From contig NZ_CP128399.1 in the NCBI RefSeq assembly GCF_030389965.1, positions 1,974,934-2,038,933 on the forward strand: a stretch of DNA of 64,000 nucleotides, given 5' to 3'. The DNA is from Candidatus Chlorohelix allophototropha (GTDB lineage: Bacteria; Chloroflexota; Chloroflexia; Chloroheliales; Chloroheliaceae). A program made the position numbers and the translations under genes. Positions within the stretch are counted from its first letter, which is position 1. Each line of letters opens with the position of its first letter. Shown here piece by piece: positions 2,653-57,332 of this stretch. The notes under the pieces were generated by a model. It did no database searches and was not told where the DNA came from. It was given only the letters and a program-made list of their open reading frames with translations.

Positions 2653-4368
2653 ATGGCAAAAGAGCATGAACAAGCCCTAATTGCTGAGTTCGGCGCAGAA
2701 ACTATACATGGCGGGCGATTGGTAGCTCGTATGCTTAAACGTGAAGGTGTGGAAGTAGTATTCACTCTCAGCGGCGGGCATATTGCGGCGATTTACGAGG
2801 GTTGCAAGCATGAAGGCATCCGGGTAGTGGATGTTCGGCACGAGCAAAGCGCGGTTATGGCTGCCGAAGGTTGGGCGCGAGTCACCGGAAAAATCGGGGT
2901 CGCGCTGGTCACTGCCGGACCCGGTGTAACCAACGCTATGACCGGAATTGCCAACGCTTTCCAAGCAGGTAGCCCTGTAATAATTATTGCCGGACGCGCT
3001 CCTCTGTCACAGGATGGGATGGGTGGGCTTCAGGAATTGGATCATATCGGAATGGTACGCCCTGTTACCAAATATGCCCGCACCGTTTATGAGACTCGCC
3101 GCATCGCCCAATATGTAGGGGATGCCTTTCGCGCTGCTCTGAGCGGCAAGCCCGGTCCGGCTTTTCTCGATATTCCGTTTGATTTACTCAACAACCTGAT
3201 ACCGGTTACAGATGCGGTCATTCCTGCTCCCGGTTATCGTGCCATATACGGGAGTGAAGCGCATCCGCAAATCGTGGAAGAGGCTGCGGAGTTGCTGGCG
3301 CAAGCAGAACGTCCGGCTATAATGGCGGGTGGGGCAGTATGGTGGTGTCGGGGGGTTGCGCCCTTCCGCCAACTGGTTGAAAATCTTCAGATTCCCACTT
3401 ATTTGAACGGCATGGGGCGCGGTTTGCTACCGAGCGACCATCCTCTTTTCTTTTCACTGAGCCGCAAGCATGCCCTTAAAAATGCCGATGTGTTGCTGAT
3501 TATCGGAACACCGCTGGATTTCCGGTTGAATTTTGGTGAGGGTATCGGCGCGGACACAAAAATAATCTGGATGGATGTTGAACCGCGCGAAGTGGGCGTA
3601 AACAAAAGCCCAACGCTTGCTATTGCAGCGGATGTAGGCTTAGCGTTGGATCAGATAATAAGAGCCTTAAACCTTCCCGGCTGGCGCAATAAAGGTGAAA
3701 GCAACGCGCGACATGATTGGTTGAAAACTCTGCATGAAAATGAAGCCAAGCAACTGGCAAAAGATGAGCCATTGATGAACAGCGATGCAGTACCGATTCA
3801 TCCGTTGCGTTTGTGTCGCGAAATCCGCGATTTTCTTGATCGAGATGCAACTGTTATCGGAGATGGTGGCGATATTGTAACGTTTGGGGCGCGGGTGATT
3901 CGAGTAAATGAACCTGCCCACTGGCTCGACCCCGGAGCAATGGGTACTTTAGGAGTGGGACCCGGCTATGCCATTGCCGCCAAATTGGCACGTCCTGATA
4001 AGCAAGTGCTATTGCTATTTGGAGATGGTAGCTTCGGCTTAAACGGGATGGATCTGGAAGCAATGGCGCGACAGAATATTCCGGTTGTATGTGTAATTGG
4101 CAATGACGGCGCATGGGGGCAGATAAAACATCCACAAAAGATGTTTTTCGGTAACAGCATCGCCGCCGAACTTTCTCAAACGGTACAGTATGAGAAAATG
4201 GCAGAAGGCTTGGGCGGTTACGGTGAGCGGGTGGAACGTCCTGAAGATATTTGCCCTGCTCTAGAACGAGCTTTTGAGTTTGCCAAACAACGGCAAAAAC
4301 CGGCGCTGATTAATGTAATTACCGACCCAACCGTAGCTTACGGGCGTAGTTCAGTAGTAGGCTTGTAG
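2653..4368 (+). CDS. Thiamine diphosphate-dependent enzyme, acetolactate synthase / 2-hydroxyacyl-CoA lyase-like
   Basis: 571 residues with the three-domain layout of the POX/AHAS superfamily. The N-terminal PYR domain has the conserved cofactor-activating Glu (E64 in VRHEQSA). A middle domain follows, then a C-terminal PP domain with the ThDP/Mg motif GDGSFGLNG at about 457-465 and the distal Asn in IGNDGAW. It catalyses carboligation or decarboxylation of a 2-keto or 2-hydroxyacyl substrate. No partner small subunit (ilvN) is nearby and the gene lies behind a hydrolase and an asparaginase. A catabolic or ILVBL/HACL-like role is therefore at least as likely as valine biosynthesis. A strong AGGAGA site sits 7 bases before the ATG, and a terminator follows at 4439. 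Confidence 0.85.
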   Translation: MAKEHEQALIAEFGAETIHGGRLVARMLKREGVEVVFTLSGGHIAAIYEGCKHEGIRVVDVRHEQSAVMAAEGWARVTGKIGVALVTAGPGVTNAMTGIANAFQAGSPVIIIAGRAPLSQDGMGGLQELDHIGMVRPVTKYARTVYETRRIAQYVGDAFRAALSGKPGPAFLDIPFDLLNNLIPVTDAVIPAPGYRAIYGSEAHPQIVEEAAELLAQAERPAIMAGGAVWWCRGVAPFRQLVENLQIPTYLNGMGRGLLPSDHPLFFSLSRKHALKNADVLLIIGTPLDFRLNFGEGIGADTKIIWMDVEPREVGVNKSPTLAIAADVGLALDQIIRALNLPGWRNKGESNARHDWLKTLHENEAKQLAKDEPLMNSDAVPIHPLRLCREIRDFLDRDATVIGDGGDIVTFGARVIRVNEPAHWLDPGAMGTLGVGPGYAIAAKLARPDKQVLLLFGDGSFGLNGMDLEAMARQNIPVVCVIGNDGAWGQIKHPQKMFFGNSIAAELSQTVQYEKMAEGLGGYGERVERPEDICPALERAFEFAKQRQKPALINVITDPTVAYGRSSVVGL

Positions 4369-31220: not shown

Positions 31221-32437
31221 TTTGCTACCGTACAGATATAAAGGAGAGGAAAAGGAGGAGAAGGTTGAGGCAGAGTGGTAAACTGTAGTTTTCTTACCGA
31301 CCAAAGTAGAAAGCAAAAGGATACCAAAATGAGTGACAACCTTCGCCGACATCGTGCCATAAAACAGCAATTGTTGCAACTCCACCCACAAGCGCAGGGG
31401 CGCGAATTACAATATTTAACAATTCTAGCGATGGTGATCAGTGGGATTGTAGGTAGTCGGCATAGTGCGTTGCCTAATATCGCCGCCAAAGTGCCAGATA
31501 AAACTAAACGGGAAAGCCGCATCATCCGAATGCGCCGATTGCTCAAAAATGATAACTTTAACCAAAAAGTGGTGTATGCTCCTTTCGCCAAACAATTGCT
31601 GAGTAGCCTGTGTCATTGTCCACTGGTACTGGTGATAGATGGCAGTCAGGTTGGTGCTGGTGGAATGGGCTTAGTAATCAGTGTAGTATATCAGGGGCGG
31701 GCTTTACCTTTGGGTTGGTTGGTGGTTAAGGCTAAAAAGGGACATTTAGCTCAAGCTTTGCACATCAGATTGTTAAAGCAAGTTCACTCGTTGGTTCCGT
31801 CTGGTAGCCAAGTAGTCTTTTTGGGTGATGGTGAATTCGATGGCTGTCGTTTGTTAAGACGGTTAGATTATTACGGTTGGCAGTATGTCTGTCGTACTGC
31901 TAAAAATAGCCAGGTCTGGTTGGATGAACAAGCTCATTATGCCATCAGTAAGTTAGGGGTTCAGCCTGGTCAGGTAGTGAGTCAGAGCGGCGTAGCATTC
32001 AGCAAACACGAGTACGGACCAGTACTGGTCATAGCGGTCTGGCAAAAGCCTTACCGTGAGCCACTTTATCTGGTGAGTAATTTGGCTCTAGCCCAGGAAG
32101 CAATCCGGTACTACAAAAAGAGGTTTAGGATTGAAACCTTCTTTTCCGATAGCAAGAGCCGAGGGTTTCGGCTGGACAAGAGCCATTTGGATGACCCTAA
32201 ACGGCTAGAAAGGTTATTGTTAGCGGCTTGTCTGGCTTATCTTTGGATTGTACATCTGGGTACGATAGCTTTAGCTGAAGGCTGGAACCGGGTCATTCAT
32301 CGCACCGAACGACTGGATTTGAGCCTGTTCAATTTAGGTTTGAACCTGCTTGAGCATTTTTTGAATGAACATTTACCCTTACCAGTCGCCTTTATCCCTT
32401 TTCTTTTAGAGGATTTCTAATTGTGTACGGTAGCAAA
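31221..32437 (+). mobile_element. Complete IS4-family insertion sequence, copy A
   Basis: 1217 bp. Both ends carry the inverted repeat TTTGCTACCGTACA (second copy in inverse orientation). It is flanked by the 8-bp direct repeat TTCCCTTT (31213-31220 and 32438-32445), the target-site duplication. It carries one transposase gene. Copy B at 56116-57332 has exactly the same length, ends and encoded protein. The intact ends, TSD and reading frame imply recent transposition. Confidence 0.95.
31329..32420 (+). CDS. IS4-family transposase (copy A)
   Basis: 363 residues from ATG 31329, which has an AAGGA site 7 bases upstream; a GTG at 31275 is in frame but lacks a site. A DDE transposase: first Asp in LVLVIDGSQVG, second in VFLGDGEFDG, and the Y-x2-R-x3-E-x6-K (YREK) signature of IS4-family enzymes in YKKRFRIETFFSDSK, which holds the catalytic Glu. 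The N-terminal helical part is presumably DNA-binding. The 8-bp duplications fit the IS4Sa-like subgroup. The frame is intact and the protein is identical to that of copy B, so both are probably active or recently so. Confidence 0.93.
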   Translation: MSDNLRRHRAIKQQLLQLHPQAQGRELQYLTILAMVISGIVGSRHSALPNIAAKVPDKTKRESRIIRMRRLLKNDNFNQKVVYAPFAKQLLSSLCHCPLVLVIDGSQVGAGGMGLVISVVYQGRALPLGWLVVKAKKGHLAQALHIRLLKQVHSLVPSGSQVVFLGDGEFDGCRLLRRLDYYGWQYVCRTAKNSQVWLDEQAHYAISKLGVQPGQVVSQSGVAFSKHEYGPVLVIAVWQKPYREPLYLVSNLALAQEAIRYYKKRFRIETFFSDSKSRGFRLDKSHLDDPKRLERLLLAACLAYLWIVHLGTIALAEGWNRVIHRTERLDLSLFNLGLNLLEHFLNEHLPLPVAFIPFLLEDF

Positions 32438-32492
32438 TTCCCTTTTAGAAGATGCGCGGTTTTGTAATCAACTTTTCTATTCAGGCTATTTT

Positions 32493-32813
32493 TTAGGCAA
32501 AGGCAGGCGATTGGAAGTTTCCAATGTAATTGTCTAGGCTGAGTATTCTGATTATGTGTCGCTGGGTGTGATAGTTTGAGAAGCGGTAACCCGCCGCTAC
32601 TTGCTCAAGCGCATTTTCATCCAGTTCCAATACTATTCCAAATACTGCATGAATTGCTGATCGCCAGTCATTGGAAGTAAAAGCATAGCCATCTCTGGTG
32701 GCAAATCTGACCAATCCGGGTATATCATTTACATCAGATTCAAACAGTTTCTGCTGAGTAATGGGATCGTTAAGCATCTTATCCAAGTAAGAAAGCGCTC
32801 TAACCTTAGACAT
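32493..32813 (-). CDS. Nif11-leader RiPP precursor-like peptide 1
   Basis: 106 residues from ATG 32813; a longer frame exists, but AGAGAGG sits 8 bases before this ATG and the M-S-K start matches its neighbours. Residues 1-72 form a Nif11-like leader: helical, with a LVRFATRDGYAF...DWRSAI core and LDENALEQV before the cleavage-type motif AAG. The 31-residue core after it (starting YRFSN) is aromatic and basic, has no Cys, and differs from the others. It is the most divergent of five tandem members. Such leaders guide modifying enzymes or C39-type export at a double-Gly-like site. No such enzyme is adjacent, so function is open. Confidence 0.78.
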   Translation of the reverse strand: MSKVRALSYLDKMLNDPITQQKLFESDVNDIPGLVRFATRDGYAFTSNDWRSAIHAVFGIVLELDENALEQVAAGYRFSNYHTQRHIIRILSLDNYIGNFQSPAFA

Positions 32814-33136
32814 ACTCATACCTCTCTCTCCGATTGCCCAATAGGGCAATTTAATACTAATTTTCAGCTATCATTCATTTCAGGTAATCTTCCAAATTTG
32901 TGGGATGTGCGTTTTGCTTGTCTGTGCTAATTCTAGCCAATACTCTTGCATTTTACAGTTAGGGTAATCACCTGAAATACGAATTATTCGTCACAGTATT
33001 TGTGTGACCTGAATAACATTATGAGGAGGATTGAGTTTTGGGCTACTTAACCTAATTATTTTGGTTTGGTTATTTGGCTTTTCAAATAAAGAACCGGAAG
33101 AGCAAACCTTCTATCCGGTTCTCTATTAATAATTAT

Positions 33137-33454
33137 CTAGAAACGACCACCTACGATAATGATGCCTTGCGCAGCTATTGGGTTTGTCCATTTCAAATAT
33201 TGGTCTAGGTAGCGAGGGGTTAGCGGTTGGGGGTTGATACCACCTGCGACCTGCTCAAGGACGTTCTCATCTAGTTCGCCATAGGAAGATTCAACGGCAT
33301 CCCGCCAATTTTGGTGGTTGAACACATAGCCCTGCTGGGCTGCGAAATTAATCAAGCTTTCAATGTCCATATTCCCCAATTTTTCCAGCTTATGCTGTAG
33401 GGTGACATCACTGTTCATTTTCTGAATAAAAGCCGCCGCATTGATTTTAGACAT
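33137..33454 (-). CDS. Nif11-leader RiPP precursor-like peptide 2
   Basis: 105 residues. The leader starts MSKINAAAFIQKMNSD and continues with the conserved IESLINFAAQQGYVF...W segment, ending LDENVLEQVAGG (the double-Gly cleavage site). The 33-residue core begins INPQPLTPRYL and ends GIIIVGGRF. It is almost the same as that of member 5, differing at about 9 positions, and has no Cys. A GGAGG site lies 7 bases before the ATG. The hydrophobic I-I-I-V tail and aromatic YLKW segment are preserved between the two, which argues for selection on the core rather than decay. Confidence 0.85.
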   Translation of the reverse strand: MSKINAAAFIQKMNSDVTLQHKLEKLGNMDIESLINFAAQQGYVFNHQNWRDAVESSYGELDENVLEQVAGGINPQPLTPRYLDQYLKWTNPIAAQGIIIVGGRF

Positions 33455-33541
33455 TAGGATACCTCCAAACTATTTTGACTAGTAAAGATAATTTTATTTA
33501 CCGGATCTCTCTGCTTATGCTAGGTGGTGCAATAATCACAT

Positions 33542-33808
33542 TTATGGAGTTGCTTTATTGACCTTGATAACGAAGTGGAAATCCTGAAATGATACTTTCC
33601 CACCAGTGATTTGATCAAGTGAGTTATCATCTAGTTCTCCGTCAGAAGATTCAACTGTATCATACCAATCTTGGGAACTGAAAACATAACCCTGTTGGGC
33701 TGCGAAATTAACCAGCGATTCTATATCTCCTAAGTTTTCGAGCTTGTGCTGTAAGGTAACCTCGCTGTTCATTTTCTGAATAAAAGCTGTCACATTGATT
33801 TTAGACAT
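33542..33808 (-). CDS. Nif11-leader RiPP precursor-like peptide 3
   Basis: 88 residues from ATG 33808 (MSKINVTAF), the start homologous to the other members. An in-frame upstream start at 33835 is less likely, as the AGAGAT ribosome site lies just before 33808. The leader is 85-90 percent like its neighbours and ends LDDNSLDQITGG. The core is a different, short 20-residue sequence (begins KVSFQDF, ends NKATP) without the N-P-Q-P-L motif and without Cys. A conserved leader with a swapped core is the usual mark of precursor diversification. Its upstream region is homologous to that of member 5. Confidence 0.83.
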   Translation of the reverse strand: MSKINVTAFIQKMNSEVTLQHKLENLGDIESLVNFAAQQGYVFSSQDWYDTVESSDGELDDNSLDQITGGKVSFQDFHFVIKVNKATP

Positions 33809-33915
33809 CTGGATATCTCTATTTACTATCGCCACACAAGGGCAAACTATATGTTTCTTGAATTCAATTTGCTAAAACGTATTGATTTAGCACTACAGAA
33901 TTGGAGAGAAGCGTC

Positions 33916-34218
33916 TCAGATCTTATTATCTTCCCTCGACTCCTTGTTAGTTATTTTCGACAATACGCCTGTGAAGTCCGGCGGCAATGGTTGTGGGTTT
34001 ATACCGCCAGCGACCTGATCAAGCGCATTCTCATCCAACTCGCCGAGAGATGATTCAATCGCCTCATGCCAATCCTGCGCGCTAAAAATATAACCCTGTT
34101 GGGCTGCGAAATTAACCAGCGATTCTATATCTATGTTTCCCAATTTTTCGAGCTTGTGTTGTAGGGTGACATCACTGTTCATTTTCTGAATAAAAGTCGA
34201 TGCGTTGATTTTAGACAT
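33916..34218 (-). CDS. Nif11-leader RiPP precursor-like peptide 4
   Basis: 100 residues. Leader MSKINASTFIQKMNSD through LDENALDQVAGG. The 28-residue core begins INPQPLPPDF and then diverges into a charged tail (KESREDNKI), unlike the YLKW...GRF cores of members 2 and 5. There is no Cys. A GGAGGTG ribosome site lies 7 bases before the ATG. The core may be a frameshifted or recombined version of the 2/5 type, since the shared part stops after N-P-Q-P-L-P-P. The same orientation and spacing suggest one transcript with the rest. Confidence 0.83.
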   Translation of the reverse strand: MSKINASTFIQKMNSDVTLQHKLEKLGNIDIESLVNFAAQQGYIFSAQDWHEAIESSLGELDENALDQVAGGINPQPLPPDFTGVLSKITNKESREDNKI

Positions 34219-34305
34219 CAGGACACCTCCACTTTTTACTTACTCGGTTTAAAAACAAGAATGGGTCAGGCATTTCACCCGACCGATTCTCCAAAAATTG
34301 TTGGA

Positions 34306-34623
34306 TTAGAAGCGACCGCTTACGATAATGATGCCTCGTGCGGATAATGGGTTTGTCCATTTCAAATAATGCGCAAGGTAGCCAGGAGGCAGGGGTTGGG
34401 GATTTAGCCCTCCGGCAACTTGTTCAAGCGAGCTTTCATCGAGTTCGCTATAAGAGGACTCTACTGCTTCTTTCCAATCCTGCGCACTGAAAACATAACC
34501 CTGCTGGGCTGCGAAATTAACCAGTGATTCTATATCCATGTTTCCCAATTTTTCGAGCTTGTGCTGTAATGTGACATCACTGTTCATTTTCTGAATAAAA
34601 GTTGATGCGTTGATTTTAGACAT
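34306..34623 (-). CDS. Nif11-leader RiPP precursor-like peptide 5
   Basis: 105 residues, first gene of the minus-strand array. The Nif11-type leader (MSKINASTFIQKMNSD, then LVNFAAQQGYVFSAQDW) ends LDESSLEQVAGG. The 33-residue core starts LNPQPLPPGYL and ends GIIIVSGRF; the part in between keeps the YLKWTNP block of member 2. A GGAGGT ribosome site precedes the ATG. About 210 gene-free bases lie upstream and should hold the array promoter; I see no confident -35/-10 pair. A fragment of an unrelated membrane-protein gene follows on the far side. Confidence 0.86.
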   Translation of the reverse strand: MSKINASTFIQKMNSDVTLQHKLEKLGNMDIESLVNFAAQQGYVFSAQDWKEAVESSYSELDESSLEQVAGGLNPQPLPPGYLAHYLKWTNPLSARGIIIVSGRF

Positions 34624-34627
34624 CAGG

Positions 34628-34705
34628 ATACCTCCACTATATTATCGCCACATAAGGACGAGTTATACGTTTCTTGATTTCAATTTTGCTAGTGTGTATT
34701 GGTGT
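34628..34705. repeat. Duplicated leader region upstream of precursors 3 and 5
   Basis: About 78 bases here match 33815-33890 at roughly three quarters of positions (TATCGCCACA, then TTTCTTGA and TTCAATTT blocks in the same order). It shows that precursor units with their upstream regions were copied in tandem. The shared TATCGCCACA block could also be a regulatory site. Confidence 0.55.
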
Positions 34706-35186: not shown

Positions 35187-35189
35187 TCA

Positions 35190-35697
35190 AATTAAATCCT
35201 GGTAAGTCGAAAAACCATCGGTACAATAGAAAATCGCTGGGGGCAATTCGTCAGCAAATTCTTGCATTTTTTCCTGGCTGCGCTCTTCCATTACCGCACA
35301 ACCCGTGATTAGAAGAGTGTCTCGGCATACACCCATTACGACGCAGACTTGTTTTTTTTTGGCTTCTACAAAGCTAAAAAGCTATCTACCTCAATGTAAT
35401 CAGTGCGCTCCTGGTCGCTTACCTGGTCGGGTAAAAGCTTTTGGGCGGCTTCGACCCAGTTAATAACGCTTTGATTGTGGACGTTTAGCAACCGACCAAT
35501 CGCCCGATAAGAAGTGCCTTCCAAATAAAGTTGAACGGCTAGCTTACGGGTCGGGGGTCGTAGCCTAGCGGTTTAGGCTGGGGTGTAAAATAGCGAGCGC
35601 AGTCCTGACAGCGATAACGCTGGGTACGGCTGCGATTGAGACCAGCTTTAATGACATAGTGATTATGTTGGCAAGTCGGGCAGTTTGGGTGACTCAT
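35190..35697 (-). pseudogene. IS1-family transposase remnant, frameshifted
   Basis: Starts at ATG 35697 behind an AAAGGAG site with the InsA zinc-finger pattern C-P-T-C ... C-Q-D-C (NCPTCQHNHYV, then RYRCQDCARYF). A first frameshift near 35540 (a C-rich run) leads into the helix-turn-helix LAVQLYLEGTSYRAIGRLL. A second one near 35378, apparently a short AGCTTT duplication, precedes the InsB-like catalytic part (FVEAKKKQVCVVMG ... YCTDGFSTYQDL). The frame then ends at the flippase fragment. At least two disruptions and a truncated 3' end make it non-functional. Confidence 0.75.
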
Positions 35698-35739
35698 TGC
35701 TTCTCCTTTTTCTTCTGGGCTTCTCGAAGCAATTATATC

Positions 35740-36809
35740 CTACTCTGCTAGTATAGGCACTCCCAGAGGGGTAGTAACCGCCTGACTATTAGGGTGTGTT
35801 GTTTCTAACAGTTTATCCAATCGTTTCTGATCTGCCAAGTGCTTGCTATCTCGAAAGGTTTGAAGAGGGGTCTTGCCGTAACAGTACCGCCCACTATGCG
35901 ACCGCTCCCGATTGTAATACTCCAGCCATTCATCCAGATCGGCCTGAACATCCTCCACACTTTGATACAGCTTCTTGCGAAAAGCAATCGCATAAAACTC
36001 TTCCTGCATTGTTTTTTGTAAGCGCTCTACGATCCCGTTCGTTTGGGGCGAATATGCCTTCGTCTTCGTATGGTCGATGTCCTCGATTGCCAGATATAAC
36101 TCGTATTCGTGGTGAGCCAGATTGCCGCAGTACTCCGTTCCGCGATCGGTCAGCACCCCGCAACACCTCCACCTCCTGCTGCTCGAACCAGGGCAGCACA
36201 CGGTCATTGAGCATATCCGCCGCCGCCAGGGCATTCTTGCAATCATACAGCTTGGCGAAGACCACCCGCGAGTAGGTATCGATCACAGTTTGTTGATAGA
36301 TACGCCCCACCCCCTTAATGGTTCCAACATAGTAGGTGTCCTGGGCAATCAGGTAACCGGGATGCTCAGTTTCAATCTCCCCGTGAGCTTCCTTCTCTTC
36401 TTTAGCTTTTTCCAGAGCCTTAAGCCGAGACTCAGTCAAAACCAGGTTTTCCTGAGCTGATTTTGCTTCCAGAGCTTTTAGTCGCTTTTTGAAGGTTTCA
36501 AGGTGAAACGAAAATCCCACGCTTTTTAAGTTCATTGCTAACCCGCAACTGACCGAAGGCGGGCTGGTCGTAGGCGAAGGTGACCACGGCTTCTTCGATA
36601 TGGGGTTCGACCCGATTAGCCGGGAGGGGCTTTTTGCGGCTAATATCTTGAAGCGCCTGATCGCTCCCGGTATCGTACAGTTCACGGTAGCGATAGAAAG
36701 TATCGCGGGAATAGCCGAGGACTTTGCAGGCCTGGCTGACATTGCCTAACTCCTCGGCTAGCTTCAGCAGTCCTACTCGCCCTTTGATGATTTTTCGTTC
36801 GACTGACAT
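35740..36809 (-). pseudogene. IS481-like transposase pseudogene
   Basis: Three frames must be joined to read it. First is an N-terminal helix-turn-helix part (36498-36809, SVERKIIKGRVGLLKLAEEL, then GYSRDTFYRYREL). A catalytic segment follows in a second frame (AQDTYYVGTIKGVGRIYQQ, first Asp). The third frame (35740-36170) holds VLTDRGTEYCG (second Asp) and TNGIVERLQKTMQEEF (Glu). The first break, near 36500, is probably a small deletion; the second, near 36165, looks like a one-base insertion. The order and D-D-E spacing fit the IS481 family. GTGTCCGA repeats near 36807 and 36862 mark one end; the other end is lost. Confidence 0.8.
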
Positions 36810-37091
36810 CGGACACTCCTTCTGATAATGCTTGTGTTGATTTTACCATACGTGTCCGATCTAGTCCTAATCATTACAACTTAATAGCTGTTTTTATTTT
36901 CGGCTATCTTACTATCAGCTTTTTCCATTTACACACACAATTTTACACTCTCGAAGGTCTCCAATTGTTTTCGCAGCAAGCAAGGTGTATGGTGGGTTAC
37001 CTTGTCAAGACAATCGGTTAAGATAGTTTAAGGTCGTTAGCTCCTTACTAATTGAATAAGGTCGAAGTCGTCATTCCCTTTGTCAGTGTTT

Positions 37092-37931
37092 TTAACCGAA
37101 GTAAACCCTACTTGGAGTCTGGTAATCCAGCGACTGATGCGGTCGGCGATTATTATAGAAATCGAAATATTCGCCTAACCCAACAGTAGCTTCAGCGGTA
37201 TTTGCGTAATCGGCTAAATAAACATTTTCCCACTTTGCTGAACGCCAAAGCCTTTCGGTGAAAATATTATCTAAGGCCCGACCTTTACCGTCCATGCTGA
37301 CCTTGCTGCCGGCTGCTTCTACCAACCGGGTGTAGTGCGGGCTGGTAAAGTGACTGCCCTGATCGCTATTAAAAATCACAGGTTGAGCTCTATTCAAAGC
37401 TCGCTCAACCGCCCGTGTCACAAAAGGTTGTTCTAAAGTTTCGCTTACTTCCCAACTTACAACATAGCGGCTGTACCAATCAATGATCGCAACCAGGTAG
37501 GCCCAACTCTTACGCAACGGCAAATAGGTTATGTCAATGCCCCAAACGTGATTGGCATAGCTGGCTTCAATGTTGCGTAACAGGTACGGATAAACCTTAT
37601 GCTCGTGATTACGCTTCGATAAATTTGGTCCGGGAGCAATGGCTTCCAGGCCCATTTCTCGCATATAACGCTGGACTGTCCGGCGATTAACCGCAAAGCC
37701 AGTCTGGCCGAGCTGACAGGTAATGCGCCGTGAACCGTAAAAAGGATAGTCGGTATAGATCAGGTCAATACGTCGCTTGAGCTCGATTTCAAAATCGCCA
37801 GGTTCAGTTTTCTGGTAATAAAGGCTCGACCGTGCCACTTGTAGCAAGTGGGCCTGAGTGGAAAGGGCCAATTCACTTTCTTCCCGTTCGACCAGGCTCA
37901 GACGGTTCGGTCGAGATACCGACACTTTCAA
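37092..37931 (-). CDS. IS3-family transposase OrfB (rve integrase core)
   Basis: 279 residues. The HTH_21-like N-terminal part (YPFYGSRRITCQLGQTG) is followed by a DDE core: VWGIDITYLPLR (Asp), VIFNSDQGSHFTS (Asp) and the Glu in DNIFTERLWRSAKWENV, with the terminal YNNRRPHQSLDYQTP block. The DDE triad is complete. It begins at a TTG inside orfA and is normally made as an OrfAB fusion by frameshifting at the A9 tract 37933-37941. Here the two frames are offset by +1 (equivalently -2), not the usual -1, so fusion would need slippage or the element may be damaged. Confidence 0.9.
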   Translation of the reverse strand: MKVSVSRPNRLSLVEREESELALSTQAHLLQVARSSLYYQKTEPGDFEIELKRRIDLIYTDYPFYGSRRITCQLGQTGFAVNRRTVQRYMREMGLEAIAPGPNLSKRNHEHKVYPYLLRNIEASYANHVWGIDITYLPLRKSWAYLVAIIDWYSRYVVSWEVSETLEQPFVTRAVERALNRAQPVIFNSDQGSHFTSPHYTRLVEAAGSKVSMDGKGRALDNIFTERLWRSAKWENVYLADYANTAEATVGLGEYFDFYNNRRPHQSLDYQTPSRVYFG

Positions 37932-38223
37932 CTTTTTTTTTCAGCCAGTTAAGCTGGATAGTTAGCTTACCGATTTCAGCGTAAAGTTTTTCTTTTTCTT
38001 TGTCGTGTTGCTCATTGATGGCTGCCAGATGCTTCTGAAACTGGGCTTCATCTGCAAAATTAGCAGGCATCGCCGTTAATGCTGCTTCGCGCCAGCGTCT
38101 CAACTGGGTGGGATGAACCCCATGTTTCGAAGCAATCTGGGTTAGAGTTTGCTCCTCTTTGAGGAGTTCCTGGACAATTTGAGCCTTAAAAGTCGGCGAG
38201 TATTTCTTTCTGGGTGTAGTCAT
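37873..38223 (-). CDS. IS3-family transposase OrfA (helix-turn-helix)
   Basis: 116 residues. A transposase_8-type helix-turn-helix lies in the first 55 residues (YSPTFKAQIVQELLKE, HGVHPTQLRRWREAA), and a leucine-zipper-like helix (about 70-105) runs up to the A9 tract. It binds the element ends. It overlaps orfB by 59 bases. A truncated second copy of the same OrfA type lies at 38509-38724, showing that relatives of this element have inserted here before. Confidence 0.9.
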   Translation of the reverse strand: MTTPRKKYSPTFKAQIVQELLKEEQTLTQIASKHGVHPTQLRRWREAALTAMPANFADEAQFQKHLAAINEQHDKEKEKLYAEIGKLTIQLNWLKKKVESVGISTEPSEPGRTGRK

Positions 38224-43990: not shown

Positions 43991-44482
43991 ATGAGAGACT
44001 TTTCAGAAGCGAGAAAGTTTATAGAGAAATACCAAGAGATTTATACCCGTGAAGCTATAACCAAGGAGCTTTTGAAACGCGGTTACTCAGAAACAGATAT
44101 TGAGGAAGCCTGGTTATTGGTTACGAAGGAGGAAGAGCAGCTCATGTATTACTCTTCTTCCAACTCTTCCGGAAGTAGTAGTACTTTCGAAAGTATTACT
44201 ACTTCCGGCAAATTCTGGGTAAGTTTTTTAATCTATTTCTTGGTAATACCAGTAATCATTGGTATTATCTCCCGAATACTTGGAGGTTCAAATTACTCCG
44301 AAGCATTTACCGCTTTTTCAATTAGCGCATTTGTTGCAGTAATATCTGGAATTATTCTCAGTATCATTTTTTGGGAAACTGACAAACCTTTAGCGCGAGG
44401 GGTATTTTACGGTTGCTTTTTCTCTACCATAACTCCAGTGATTTCTCTGCTAATTATAATTGGAATTTGTAACGCCGGTTGA
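43991..44482 (+). CDS. Membrane protein paralogue 3
   Basis: 163 residues. The N-terminal TREAITKELLKRGYSETDIE domain is followed by a Ser-rich linker (about 54-70, SSNSSGSSS) and three membrane helices. The FWETDKPLARGVFYGC loop is nearly the same as in paralogue 1, as is the final helix ending IGICNAG. It ends 13 bases before the radical SAM start. Because copies 1 and 3 resemble each other more than copy 2, the middle gene has either been under different selection or is older. The function is unknown. Confidence 0.84.
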   Translation: MRDFSEARKFIEKYQEIYTREAITKELLKRGYSETDIEEAWLLVTKEEEQLMYYSSSNSSGSSSTFESITTSGKFWVSFLIYFLVIPVIIGIISRILGGSNYSEAFTAFSISAFVAVISGIILSIIFWETDKPLARGVFYGCFFSTITPVISLLIIIGICNAG

Positions 44483-44495
44483 AGGAAATAATAGG

Positions 44496-46055
44496 ATGGA
44501 TTTACGACCTTTTACGCCACTACAAATGGTACTCACGGTATGTGGTAAATGCTTCTCTGAGGATCCGGGTCGCAAGATAGAATATGAAAGGGATGTGCTA
44601 CAAGGTAATCTCATCTTGATGGATGGTAAAGTCTATCTGCGCCGTCATTGCCGCCGTGGTCATGGTGAGGTAATCAGTTTGTATGAGGAAGATTACGGAC
44701 TCTGGGAATATTTGCAGCAGTGGCGGGTACCGACAAAATACCATATCTCCGATACTGTGGGTAATAACCTGCCTATACCGATGGGTTACTTGAATGGTCT
44801 AGGTGAGTTGCAGACTCAGCATAGTTGTATTTTTTTGCTAGATATAACTGAGAACTGTAACCTGAAATGCCCAACCTGTTTTGCCGACAGTGGTCCTTCA
44901 ATAAACCGTTTTGTACGGCTCGACCATATTATGCGTTCTCTTGACGCTGTGATAGAGCGCGAGGGGGGCAGAATCGATGTGCTGATGCTGAGTGGCGGTG
45001 AGCCCACTGTCCATCCTGATATCATCGAGATTATCAAGGAAGCCACTCGCCGTAATGTGACCAGAGTTTTGCTTAACACTAACGGGATACGAATTGCCCG
45101 TGAGGATAAATTGCTTTCTGCCTTGGCAAAACTGCGAAACCGGGTGGAAGTGTATCTGCAATTTGATGGGTTTTCGCTAGAATCCCATCTGTACCACCGG
45201 GGTGAGGATCTGCGGGAAGTCAAGAAGGAAGCGGTTCGACGTTTGGCGGAAGCCCGTATTTTCACAACTTTAGTAATGGCGGTTGCACAGGGAGTAAACG
45301 ATCATGAGGTTGGTCAAGTAGCAGAATTCGCTTTCCAGACCGATTATATCGGCGGGGTTTCCTTCCAACCGATATTTGGGTCTGGTCGTGCCAATACTAT
45401 AGACCCAATGAAAAGAGTTACTACTACTGGAGTATTGCGACTTCTGGAACAGCAAACTGGCGGAAGCTTGGTACCACAAGATTTTATTGCATTACCGTGT
45501 AGCCACCCTGATTGTTGTACCCTCACCTATTTTATTAAGGGAGATGAAGGTCAGCTAACTTCGATACCGAGCCTGTTGGGACACGATAGGCTAAAAGCTA
45601 ACCTGAGTCTGGTTTCAAATCGGGTTGCTTATCCCGATGCCAATCCGGCTATTCAGGCTGCCCTCACGGGAATGATGAGCGAAACCACCACTATAACCCG
45701 CCCGGAATTAGTAGATTATGTGCTGAATATCTGCGAAAATTGCGAATTGGGTCTGAGCAGTTTTGTAAAAAGTGTGACTAACCTATTGCTCAAACGCGAA
45801 GACCCGGTTGAAACAATCGCTAAAAGGATGAAACGAATTACTATTAAATCTTTTATGGATGGTTGGACTATGAATGTTGAAAGGTTGCAGCAATGCTGTG
45901 TGCATGTGGGAACTACGGAGGGCGACTCTAACCCTATCCGTATCCCTTTTTGCGCCCGGCAGCTTTTCCAAGAAGCGCGAGACAAAACTCTAACCGGAAG
46001 AGTTAGGGCTGATGAACTAATTCAGGTAAAACGTAACAAGGAGGTAAGAATATGA
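44496..46055 (+). CDS. Radical SAM enzyme, tetraether-synthase (Tes/MJ0619)-like
   Basis: 519 residues from ATG 44496, behind an AAGGA site. An N-terminal metal-binding domain has C-x2-C (VCGKCF) and later RRHCRRGHGE. The radical SAM core has CNLKCPTC (the CX3CX2C cluster ligands) followed by MLSGGEPTVHPD and LNTNGIRIA. A C-terminal part has more Cys groups: CSHPDCCTLTYF, CENCELG and QQCC. This order (rubredoxin-like start, SGGEPTVHPD, YLQFDG, GVNDHEVG, HPDC) matches the archaeal Tes family, which joins two lipid alkyl chains by C-C bonds. Bacterial homologues are suspected in membrane-spanning lipid synthesis. It shares an operon with an Lgt-like protein. The product chemistry is inferred. 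Confidence 0.85.
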   Translation: MDLRPFTPLQMVLTVCGKCFSEDPGRKIEYERDVLQGNLILMDGKVYLRRHCRRGHGEVISLYEEDYGLWEYLQQWRVPTKYHISDTVGNNLPIPMGYLNGLGELQTQHSCIFLLDITENCNLKCPTCFADSGPSINRFVRLDHIMRSLDAVIEREGGRIDVLMLSGGEPTVHPDIIEIIKEATRRNVTRVLLNTNGIRIAREDKLLSALAKLRNRVEVYLQFDGFSLESHLYHRGEDLREVKKEAVRRLAEARIFTTLVMAVAQGVNDHEVGQVAEFAFQTDYIGGVSFQPIFGSGRANTIDPMKRVTTTGVLRLLEQQTGGSLVPQDFIALPCSHPDCCTLTYFIKGDEGQLTSIPSLLGHDRLKANLSLVSNRVAYPDANPAIQAALTGMMSETTTITRPELVDYVLNICENCELGLSSFVKSVTNLLLKREDPVETIAKRMKRITIKSFMDGWTMNVERLQQCCVHVGTTEGDSNPIRIPFCARQLFQEARDKTLTGRVRADELIQVKRNKEVRI

Positions 46056-56114: not shown

Positions 56115-56115
56115 A

Positions 56116-57332
56116 TTTGCTACCGTACACAATTAGAAATCCTCTAAAAGAAAAGGGATAAAGGCGACTGGTAAGGGTAAATGTTCATTCAAAAAATGCT
56201 CAAGCAGGTTCAAACCTAAATTGAACAGGCTCAAATCCAGTCGTTCGGTGCGATGAATGACCCGGTTCCAGCCTTCAGCTAAAGCTATCGTACCCAGATG
56301 TACAATCCAAAGATAAGCCAGACAAGCCGCTAACAATAACCTTTCTAGCCGTTTAGGGTCATCCAAATGGCTCTTGTCCAGCCGAAACCCTCGGCTCTTG
56401 CTATCGGAAAAGAAGGTTTCAATCCTAAACCTCTTTTTGTAGTACCGGATTGCTTCCTGGGCTAGAGCCAAATTACTCACCAGATAAAGTGGCTCACGGT
56501 AAGGCTTTTGCCAGACCGCTATGACCAGTACTGGTCCGTACTCGTGTTTGCTGAATGCTACGCCGCTCTGACTCACTACCTGACCAGGCTGAACCCCTAA
56601 CTTACTGATGGCATAATGAGCTTGTTCATCCAACCAGACCTGGCTATTTTTAGCAGTACGACAGACATACTGCCAACCGTAATAATCTAACCGTCTTAAC
56701 AAACGACAGCCATCGAATTCACCATCACCCAAAAAGACTACTTGGCTACCAGACGGAACCAACGAGTGAACTTGCTTTAACAATCTGATGTGCAAAGCTT
56801 GAGCTAAATGTCCCTTTTTAGCCTTAACCACCAACCAACCCAAAGGTAAAGCCCGCCCCTGATATACTACACTGATTACTAAGCCCATTCCACCAGCACC
56901 AACCTGACTGCCATCTATCACCAGTACCAGTGGACAATGACACAGGCTACTCAGCAATTGTTTGGCGAAAGGAGCATACACCACTTTTTGGTTAAAGTTA
57001 TCATTTTTGAGCAATCGGCGCATTCGGATGATGCGGCTTTCCCGTTTAGTTTTATCTGGCACTTTGGCGGCGATATTAGGCAACGCACTATGCCGACTAC
57101 CTACAATCCCACTGATCACCATCGCTAGAATTGTTAAATATTGTAATTCGCGCCCCTGCGCTTGTGGGTGGAGTTGCAACAATTGCTGTTTTATGGCACG
57201 ATGTCGGCGAAGGTTGTCACTCATTTTGGTATCCTTTTGCTTTCTACTTTGGTCGGTAAGAAAACTACAGTTTACCACTCTGCCTCAACCTTCTCCTCCT
57301 TTTCCTCTCCTTTATATCTGTACGGTAGCAAA
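56116..57332 (-). mobile_element. Complete IS4-family insertion sequence, copy B
   Basis: 1217 bp, identical in length, terminal repeats (TTTGCTACCGTACA) and encoded protein to copy A, in opposite orientation. It is flanked by the 8-bp duplication TTTCCATA (56108-56115 and 57333-57340). It sits at the start codon of the TPR gene. The intact protein and clean duplications indicate recent movement. Confidence 0.95.
56133..57224 (-). CDS. IS4-family transposase (copy B)
   Basis: 363 residues, identical in translation to copy A (start ATG 57224). The catalytic Asp residues are in LVLVIDGSQVG and VFLGDGEFDG, and the YREK block is complete. Its stop TAA directly precedes a TTG in frame with the following TPR gene, which could give re-initiation. 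Outward transcription from the element may therefore drive the neighbour. Confidence 0.93.
   Translation of the reverse strand: MSDNLRRHRAIKQQLLQLHPQAQGRELQYLTILAMVISGIVGSRHSALPNIAAKVPDKTKRESRIIRMRRLLKNDNFNQKVVYAPFAKQLLSSLCHCPLVLVIDGSQVGAGGMGLVISVVYQGRALPLGWLVVKAKKGHLAQALHIRLLKQVHSLVPSGSQVVFLGDGEFDGCRLLRRLDYYGWQYVCRTAKNSQVWLDEQAHYAISKLGVQPGQVVSQSGVAFSKHEYGPVLVIAVWQKPYREPLYLVSNLALAQEAIRYYKKRFRIETFFSDSKSRGFRLDKSHLDDPKRLERLLLAACLAYLWIVHLGTIALAEGWNRVIHRTERLDLSLFNLGLNLLEHFLNEHLPLPVAFIPFLLEDF

Follow-up and report, generated by a model that had tools for sequence, protein, structure and literature searches.

Five Nif11-leader double-glycine peptide precursors in 'Candidatus Chlorohelix allophototropha', probably exported in trans, and a pair of core modules that recurs outside the array

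Five successive minus-strand genes at positions 32493-34623 of the window (the whole 64,000-nt stretch of DNA analyzed here) encode double-glycine precursors with Nif11-type leaders, and these intact precursors are probably trimmed and exported in trans by an NHLM system encoded on another replicon, a reading to which we assign a probability of roughly 0.6. The single NHLM exporter of the genome has a C39 peptidase, which would recognize the last helix of the leader and cut after GG (AG in w1), and the exporter would release a Cys-free peptide of 18-33 residues, for whose job the modules NPQPLPP and GIIIVSG would be needed. A preliminary description had placed five Nif11-leader RiPP-type precursors here, and the open reading frames found at this place, with their matches to PF07862 and TIGR03798, bear this out (Table 1). 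The genome comprises 6,086,194 bases in five contigs (C1, 2,961,161; C2, 2,453,413), with the array on C1; 'Ca. Chlorohelix allophototropha' L227-S17 has been described as carrying chromosomes of 2.96 and 2.45 Mb and a further 375, 241 and 55 kb (PMC10972752), and the words Nif11, RiPP, bacteriocin and lanthipeptide are absent from the main text of that paper.

Table 1. Features of the array and its flanks, in window coordinates
Feature	Position	Strand	Description	Basis
IS element	31221-32438	plus	DDE_Tnp_1 transposase (381 aa, 31275-32420), flank outside the array	repeat and Pfam
Precursor w1	32493-32849	minus	most divergent; leader end VAAG; core YRFSNYHTQRHIIRILSLDNYIGNFQSPAFA; likely ATG start near 32816	ORF list; TIGR03798 27.1 bits (under cut-off); PF07862 at cut-off
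Precursor w2	33137-33454	minus	105 aa; leader end VAGG; core INPQPLTPRYLDQYLKWTNPIAAQGIIIVGGRF; both modules	ORF list; TIGR03798; PF07862; leader-site count
GIIIVGG module of w2	33146-33166	minus		coordinates derived from ORF
NPQPLTP module of w2	33216-33235	minus		pattern match, one mismatch
Precursor w3	33542-33835	minus	leader end ITGG; core KVSFQDFHFVIKVNKATP; no module; likely start 33808 (ATG)	ORF list; TIGR03798; PF07862; leader-site count
Upstream repeat	33824-33870		47 nt, 5' of w3; 83% identity to 34640-34686, 5' of w5	repeat family D5
Precursor w4	33916-34218	minus	100 aa; leader end VAGG; core INPQPLPPDFTGVLSKITNKESREDNKI; first module only	ORF list; TIGR03798; PF07862; leader-site count
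NPQPLPP module of w4	33980-33999	minus		exact pattern match
Precursor w5	34306-34623	minus	105 aa; Nif11 leader, end VAGG; core LNPQPLPPGYLAHYLKWTNPLSARGIIIVSGRF; both modules	ORF list; TIGR03798; PF07862; leader-site count
GIIIVSG module of w5	34315-34335	minus		coordinates derived from ORF
NPQPLPP module of w5	34385-34404	minus		exact pattern match
IS remnants	35187-38223	minus	rve, HTH_29 and IS3-type pieces, other flank	Pfam

All five frames are open, and they make up five of the nine Nif11 copies that a PF07862 search found in the whole genome. Four of the five pass the cut-off of TIGR03798 (Nif11-like leader RiPP precursor; 40.9-50.0 bits, cut-off 32.3), which w1 misses at 27.1 bits; by hmmscan, PF07862 likewise passes four and leaves w1 at 22.9 against a cut-off of 23.8, the value that w1 reached in the genome-wide search, where it was counted over the cut-off. 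The leaders of w2-w5 share 77-88% of their amino acids and 77-84% of their DNA in pairwise comparison, while the w1 leader is only 39-47% identical to them at the amino acid level. The earlier statement that the leaders are near-identical and end in VAGG or TGG therefore holds for four copies and fails for w1, which ends in VAAG. Conserved leaders (77-88% among the four) are thus combined with variable cores (6-73% identity). Taking into consideration that four leaders share just 77-84% DNA identity, the duplications are old, and direct repeats show the array units to be tandem duplicates, in at least one pair of which (w3/w5) the upstream DNA was duplicated along with the gene.

Leu at position -12, Leu at -7 and Val or Ile at -4 before the cleavage site were found in all five leaders (with GG in four and AG in w1), and the same set is present in the four other Nif11 peptides of the genome. 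By comparison, of the 331 sites of the form GG, AG, GA or GS that the remaining window proteins contain, none carries this set, and 10 have hydrophobic residues of whatever kind at the three positions. As described for the Nif11 system LahT, the C39 protease has a groove that these leader residues occupy, and charged substitutions at these positions abolish or impair cleavage (PMC6363468). The cleavage sites given in the available text of that study are GG, GA and GS, and do not include AG as in w1. In a structure model of w5, built with 15 relatives, residues 1-58 form leader helices predicted with confidence and the C-terminal part including the core is unordered (pLDDT <50), and this predicted combination of a helical leader and a disordered core is as expected of a precursor.

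The dN/dS of the w2, w4 and w5 leaders is 0.08-0.10 where dS is finite, and leader dS is near-saturated at about 1 or more, synonymous sites being saturated between w2 and w5. Because a dN/dS of about 0.1 is seen at near-saturated dS, the array is both old and under purifying selection, which argues against its being debris. This bears on the idea that the array is the disused remnant of a biosynthetic cluster broken by insertion sequences, for which the insertion sequence genes on both sides, a weak flippase-like fragment and the lack of an enzyme nearby could be cited. Such a remnant is quite unlikely, given five open frames, the low leader dN/dS, the retention of NPQPLPP in w4 and w5 (six of seven codons differ, all six synonymously, and the remaining core parts are dissimilar) and the GGAGG sequences that, judged by eye, resemble ribosome-binding sites 5' of w2, w4 and w5. 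Moreover, the flanking element at 31221-32438 is identical over 1218 bp to a second copy in the window (56115-57332, opposite orientation) and is therefore recent, so that a fresh insertion stands beside an array that is old and selected.

A Pfam scan of 20 neighboring genes found no RiPP maturase, C39 peptidase, ABC exporter or YcaO, which agrees with the preliminary description that no LanM, radical SAM, YcaO, C39 protease or ABC transporter lies within several kb. Its "IS debris and broken flippase" can be kept for the insertion sequences, and the flippase comes down to a PF03706 match that is weak, at 15.8 bits against a cut-off of 33.4. A radical SAM gene about 10 kb from the array (44460-46055) resembles TrsS and Tes, the tetraether lipid synthase, without reaching the cut-off of either; it was considered as a maturase of the array and rejected, being TrsS/Tes-like with all of its matches below cut-off. 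Conserved synteny against which an excision of enzymes by IS elements could be judged was not found, the best homologues of the PadR neighbor in G002 and G004 lying in unrelated surroundings, and no observation made here supports the earlier suggestion that transposons cut the cluster.

The preliminary description had proposed a genome-wide search for RiPP enzymes and C39 transporters, and had regarded a genome without RiPP enzymes as speaking against its reading. PF03412 gave two matches in the genome, one marginal and one a strong C39 gene on C2 (127 bits), which is an NHLM ABC1 gene (1134 bits, cut-off 853) and, with NHLM ABC2 (927, cut-off 709) and HlyD (234, cut-off 156) adjoining it, forms a complete NHLM exporter. 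This exporter is unlinked to the array, being on C2 and not on C1, and the 19.5 kb around it hold no Nif11 gene. A PF13575 search found one gene (C1:752494), 1.25 Mb from the array and adjoining its own Nif11 gene; its product, a DUF4135 protein of 673 aa, covers positions 2-526 of the 932 of the LanM model, that is, the dehydratase half, and has no LanC domain. TIGR03975 found one gene over the cut-off (C1:1606350), 0.40 Mb from the array and likewise adjoining its own Nif11 gene, and four further matches far below it; the product is of the RiPP radical SAM C-methyltransferase type (rSAM_ocin_1). The search thus located a C39 exporter and two RiPP enzymes, all away from the array, and a genome devoid of RiPP enzymes is not what was found. 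The two remaining non-array Nif11 genes (L039, L040) are orphans. A second small double-glycine peptide, with leader end LSDEALDNVSGG, is encoded 2 kb from the Nif11/rSAM_ocin_1 pair (L038:6892-7101; C1:1603391-1603600).

With these two enzymes in the genome, each present once over the cut-off and each adjoining a Nif11 precursor of its own, the array peptides could be modified in trans before export, by the radical SAM C-methyltransferase or by the cyclase-less LanM dehydratase, in a dispersed arrangement like that of the prochlorosins, where a single ProcM serves scattered precursors (PMC10783134). Nif11 genes also stand beside these two types of enzyme in relatives, and each array core offers two to four Ser and Thr residues. 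Against this, the w2-w5 leaders are no nearer to the two enzyme-paired Nif11 leaders of the genome (30-43% identity; w1 27-32%) than to the two orphan leaders (34-47%; w1 30-39%), which gives no sign of shared recognition; in addition, peptides that carry the same modules in other genomes (described below) have other leaders, and in the stretches read a RiPP enzyme was recognized by eye near just one of them, at the G642 locus. We therefore regard modification before export as possible, though clearly less probable than export of the trimmed peptides as such; modification in trans other than by lanthionine formation is possible, and nothing requires it. The earlier suggestion that distant enzymes serve the array is plausible for export, through the one NHLM system on C2, and finds no leader kinship that would favor the enzyme-paired loci. 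Export by the C2 system, by which the peptides would leave the cell, has against it that the exporter is on another replicon, that a promoter scan gave no more than background (11 found, 7.3 +/- 2.4 expected) and that w1 has an AG site and a TIGR03798 score under the cut-off.

In this genome and 60 relatives, a Nif11 match was found in 11 of 61 genomes, in 8 of them over the cut-off. In the stretches read from genomes of the same family, Nif11 genes adjoin these two types of enzyme (G001, G003, G004) or stand alone (two in G001), and no five-gene array was seen in those stretches. Three genomes of the family encode a Nif11 peptide with a short alternating core (e.g., SISITITIKF) directly beside an rSAM_ocin_1 gene with 635-650 bits to TIGR03975 (L045:6349-8696, L046:9730-12138, L049:9775-12121). 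In two genomes of the family, Cys-free Nif11 peptides occur with a stand-alone DUF4135 LanM dehydratase half and an aldo/keto-reductase-like gene (L037:6327-9739, that is, C1:751326-754738, and L044:7315-11082 in G004). A dehydratase and a reductase could together yield D-amino acids; the known reductases of the D-amino acid step belong to other families.

The array cores are 18-33 aa long, with two to four Ser plus Thr and with Cys in none of the five. Three of them (w2, w4 and w5) have [IL]NPQPL[PT]P directly after GG, and those of w2 and w5 close with GIIIV[SG]GRF. The latter stretch has the same codon at seven of nine positions in w2 and w5 and, because the codons are mostly the same, gives no grounds to infer selection within the array. 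The precursor diversification inferred earlier holds in part: the cores vary in length and sequence, but NPQPL[PT]P is kept in three of five and GIIIV[SG]G in two. A lanthipeptide array was rejected: with Cys absent from all five cores, lanthionine rings cannot form, and the one DUF4135 protein of the genome lacks the LanC domain expected of a class II system. Plasmid searches with the core peptides gave only TrbA-type, leader-like matches (E 6-8), a PDB search gave no match, and a literature search of limited coverage found no mention of NPQPLPP, or of QPLPP with Bradyrhizobium.

A search of 400 genomes of the phylum for the exact pattern GG-x-NPQPLPP found it in two, the present genome and, outside the array, G357, and the backwards control had no match. 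The G357 peptide, from another class of Chloroflexota, has 66 aa and reads GGLNPQPLPPGAADTFKLDNKIARQGIIIVSGYQE, with both modules in the order of the array behind a double-glycine leader to which the Nif11 model gives no match. In six Bradyrhizobium-type genomes (one a Hyphomicrobiales MAG), eight peptide genes read GG-II[ILV]V[SG]G ... VALNPQPLPP, with the order of the modules reversed. The second module was no part of the patterns that found the two groups (GG-x-NPQPLPP for G357, NPQPLPP for the Bradyrhizobium type). A first-order module profile matched 1 of 29 genomes in the G357 family, the center itself; the reversed-order profile matched 5 of 98 genomes of the Bradyrhizobium genus and, in the order, 1 of 150, again the center itself. 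In shuffle tests against w5, run after the likeness had been noticed, none of 200000 shuffles of the G357 core reached the identical run; four of the eight Bradyrhizobium-type cores were strong (0-2 of 20000), one (L065) was weak (32 of 20000), and L095, L097 and L098 had no significant identical run (3347-4065 of 20000 shuffles reached it).

In G642, of the Bradyrhizobium genus, NHLM HlyD, ABC1, ABC2 and a cNMP-binding gene (similar to TIGR03896; 126 bits, cut-off 161) have the two-module precursor gene directly downstream on their strand, an arrangement that supports the export reading. Divergent from this NHLM operon, a radical SAM gene of the B12 type (102 bits to rSAM_ocin_1, cut-off 282) is followed by a Trp_DMAT-like, indole-prenyltransferase-like gene (PF11991; L100:16170-19494), and the locus is a possible RiPP cluster. 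Elsewhere, no RiPP enzyme was recognized by eye beside Bradyrhizobium-type or G357 two-module peptides in the stretches read.

NPQPLPP also stands without the second module in four further double-glycine peptides of the Bradyrhizobium-type genomes (L009, L010, L011, L012), and two DUF2189 membrane proteins (L062:625-1596, L066:511-1605) have a C-terminal tail ELNPQPLPPR that includes the octamer of the peptides. In viral contigs, NPQPLPP occurred in several unrelated ORFs, and GG-IIIV just in glycine-rich or unrelated frames. Because of its presence in DUF2189 tails and unrelated viral-contig ORFs, NPQPLPP alone, being short, may have arisen more than once by convergence, and what is specific is that short double-glycine peptides combine the two modules. 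The octamer in such non-precursor proteins could also suggest that the array proteins, with their Nif11 domain, act inside the cell in a non-RiPP role, the GG being incidental; this is highly improbable, since the C39 recognition residues mark every array leader and no background site, and since the same core is found behind other double-glycine leaders and beside an NHLM exporter.

It is doubtful, though conceivable, that a single type of secreted peptide, with NPQPLPP and GIIIVSG as its two halves, spans Chloroflexota and Bradyrhizobium, with varying leaders and tolerance of either order; the likeness across phyla is a resemblance of sequence, from which common descent does not follow. A free module order would fit a backbone-cyclized product, or two independent binding motifs facing one partner. 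The ring was weakened as a candidate because the spacing between the modules, judged by eye, differs between the two orders, so that loop lengths do not support it.

RiPP precursors are usually viewed as conserved leaders with free cores. In this array a core module is kept at the protein level despite synonymous change, while leaders and other core parts differ, and the pair of modules recurs in a further class and a further phylum, with different leaders and with the order turned round. If real, this would point to a shared target or partner of the secreted peptide and not to chemical diversification, and a short peptide that can be synthesized would be available for testing. Orphan Nif11 arrays, moreover, need not be broken clusters.

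Among known systems, the prochlorosins and LahA (TIGR03798) share with the array the Nif11 leader, the double-glycine site, paralogues with different cores and an enzyme that is not necessarily linked (PMC10783134, PMC6363468). Unlike them, the array has cores without Cys, modules conserved in three of five copies and a stand-alone five-gene arrangement, and no LanM with a cyclase domain was found in this genome. The NHLM (NHLP bacteriocin) export set (TIGR03794/03796/03797) is complete both here, unlinked to the array, and beside the two-module gene of G642. The peptides of the Bradyrhizobium genus share both modules and a double-glycine leader with the array, and differ in the reversed order and in a short leader that is not of the Nif11 type. 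In Synechococcus elongatus, the four small GG-motif proteins EbfG1-4, exported with the aid of the C39 peptidase transporter PteB, have been reported to be required for biofilm formation and functionally redundant (PMC4997328). The array can be likened to EbfG1-4 and PteB by description; the available text of that study does not mention Nif11, and the exporter of the array would be on another replicon. By analogy, and not by membership, the EbfG/PteB system shows that GG peptides can act in a social trait without a known modifying enzyme.
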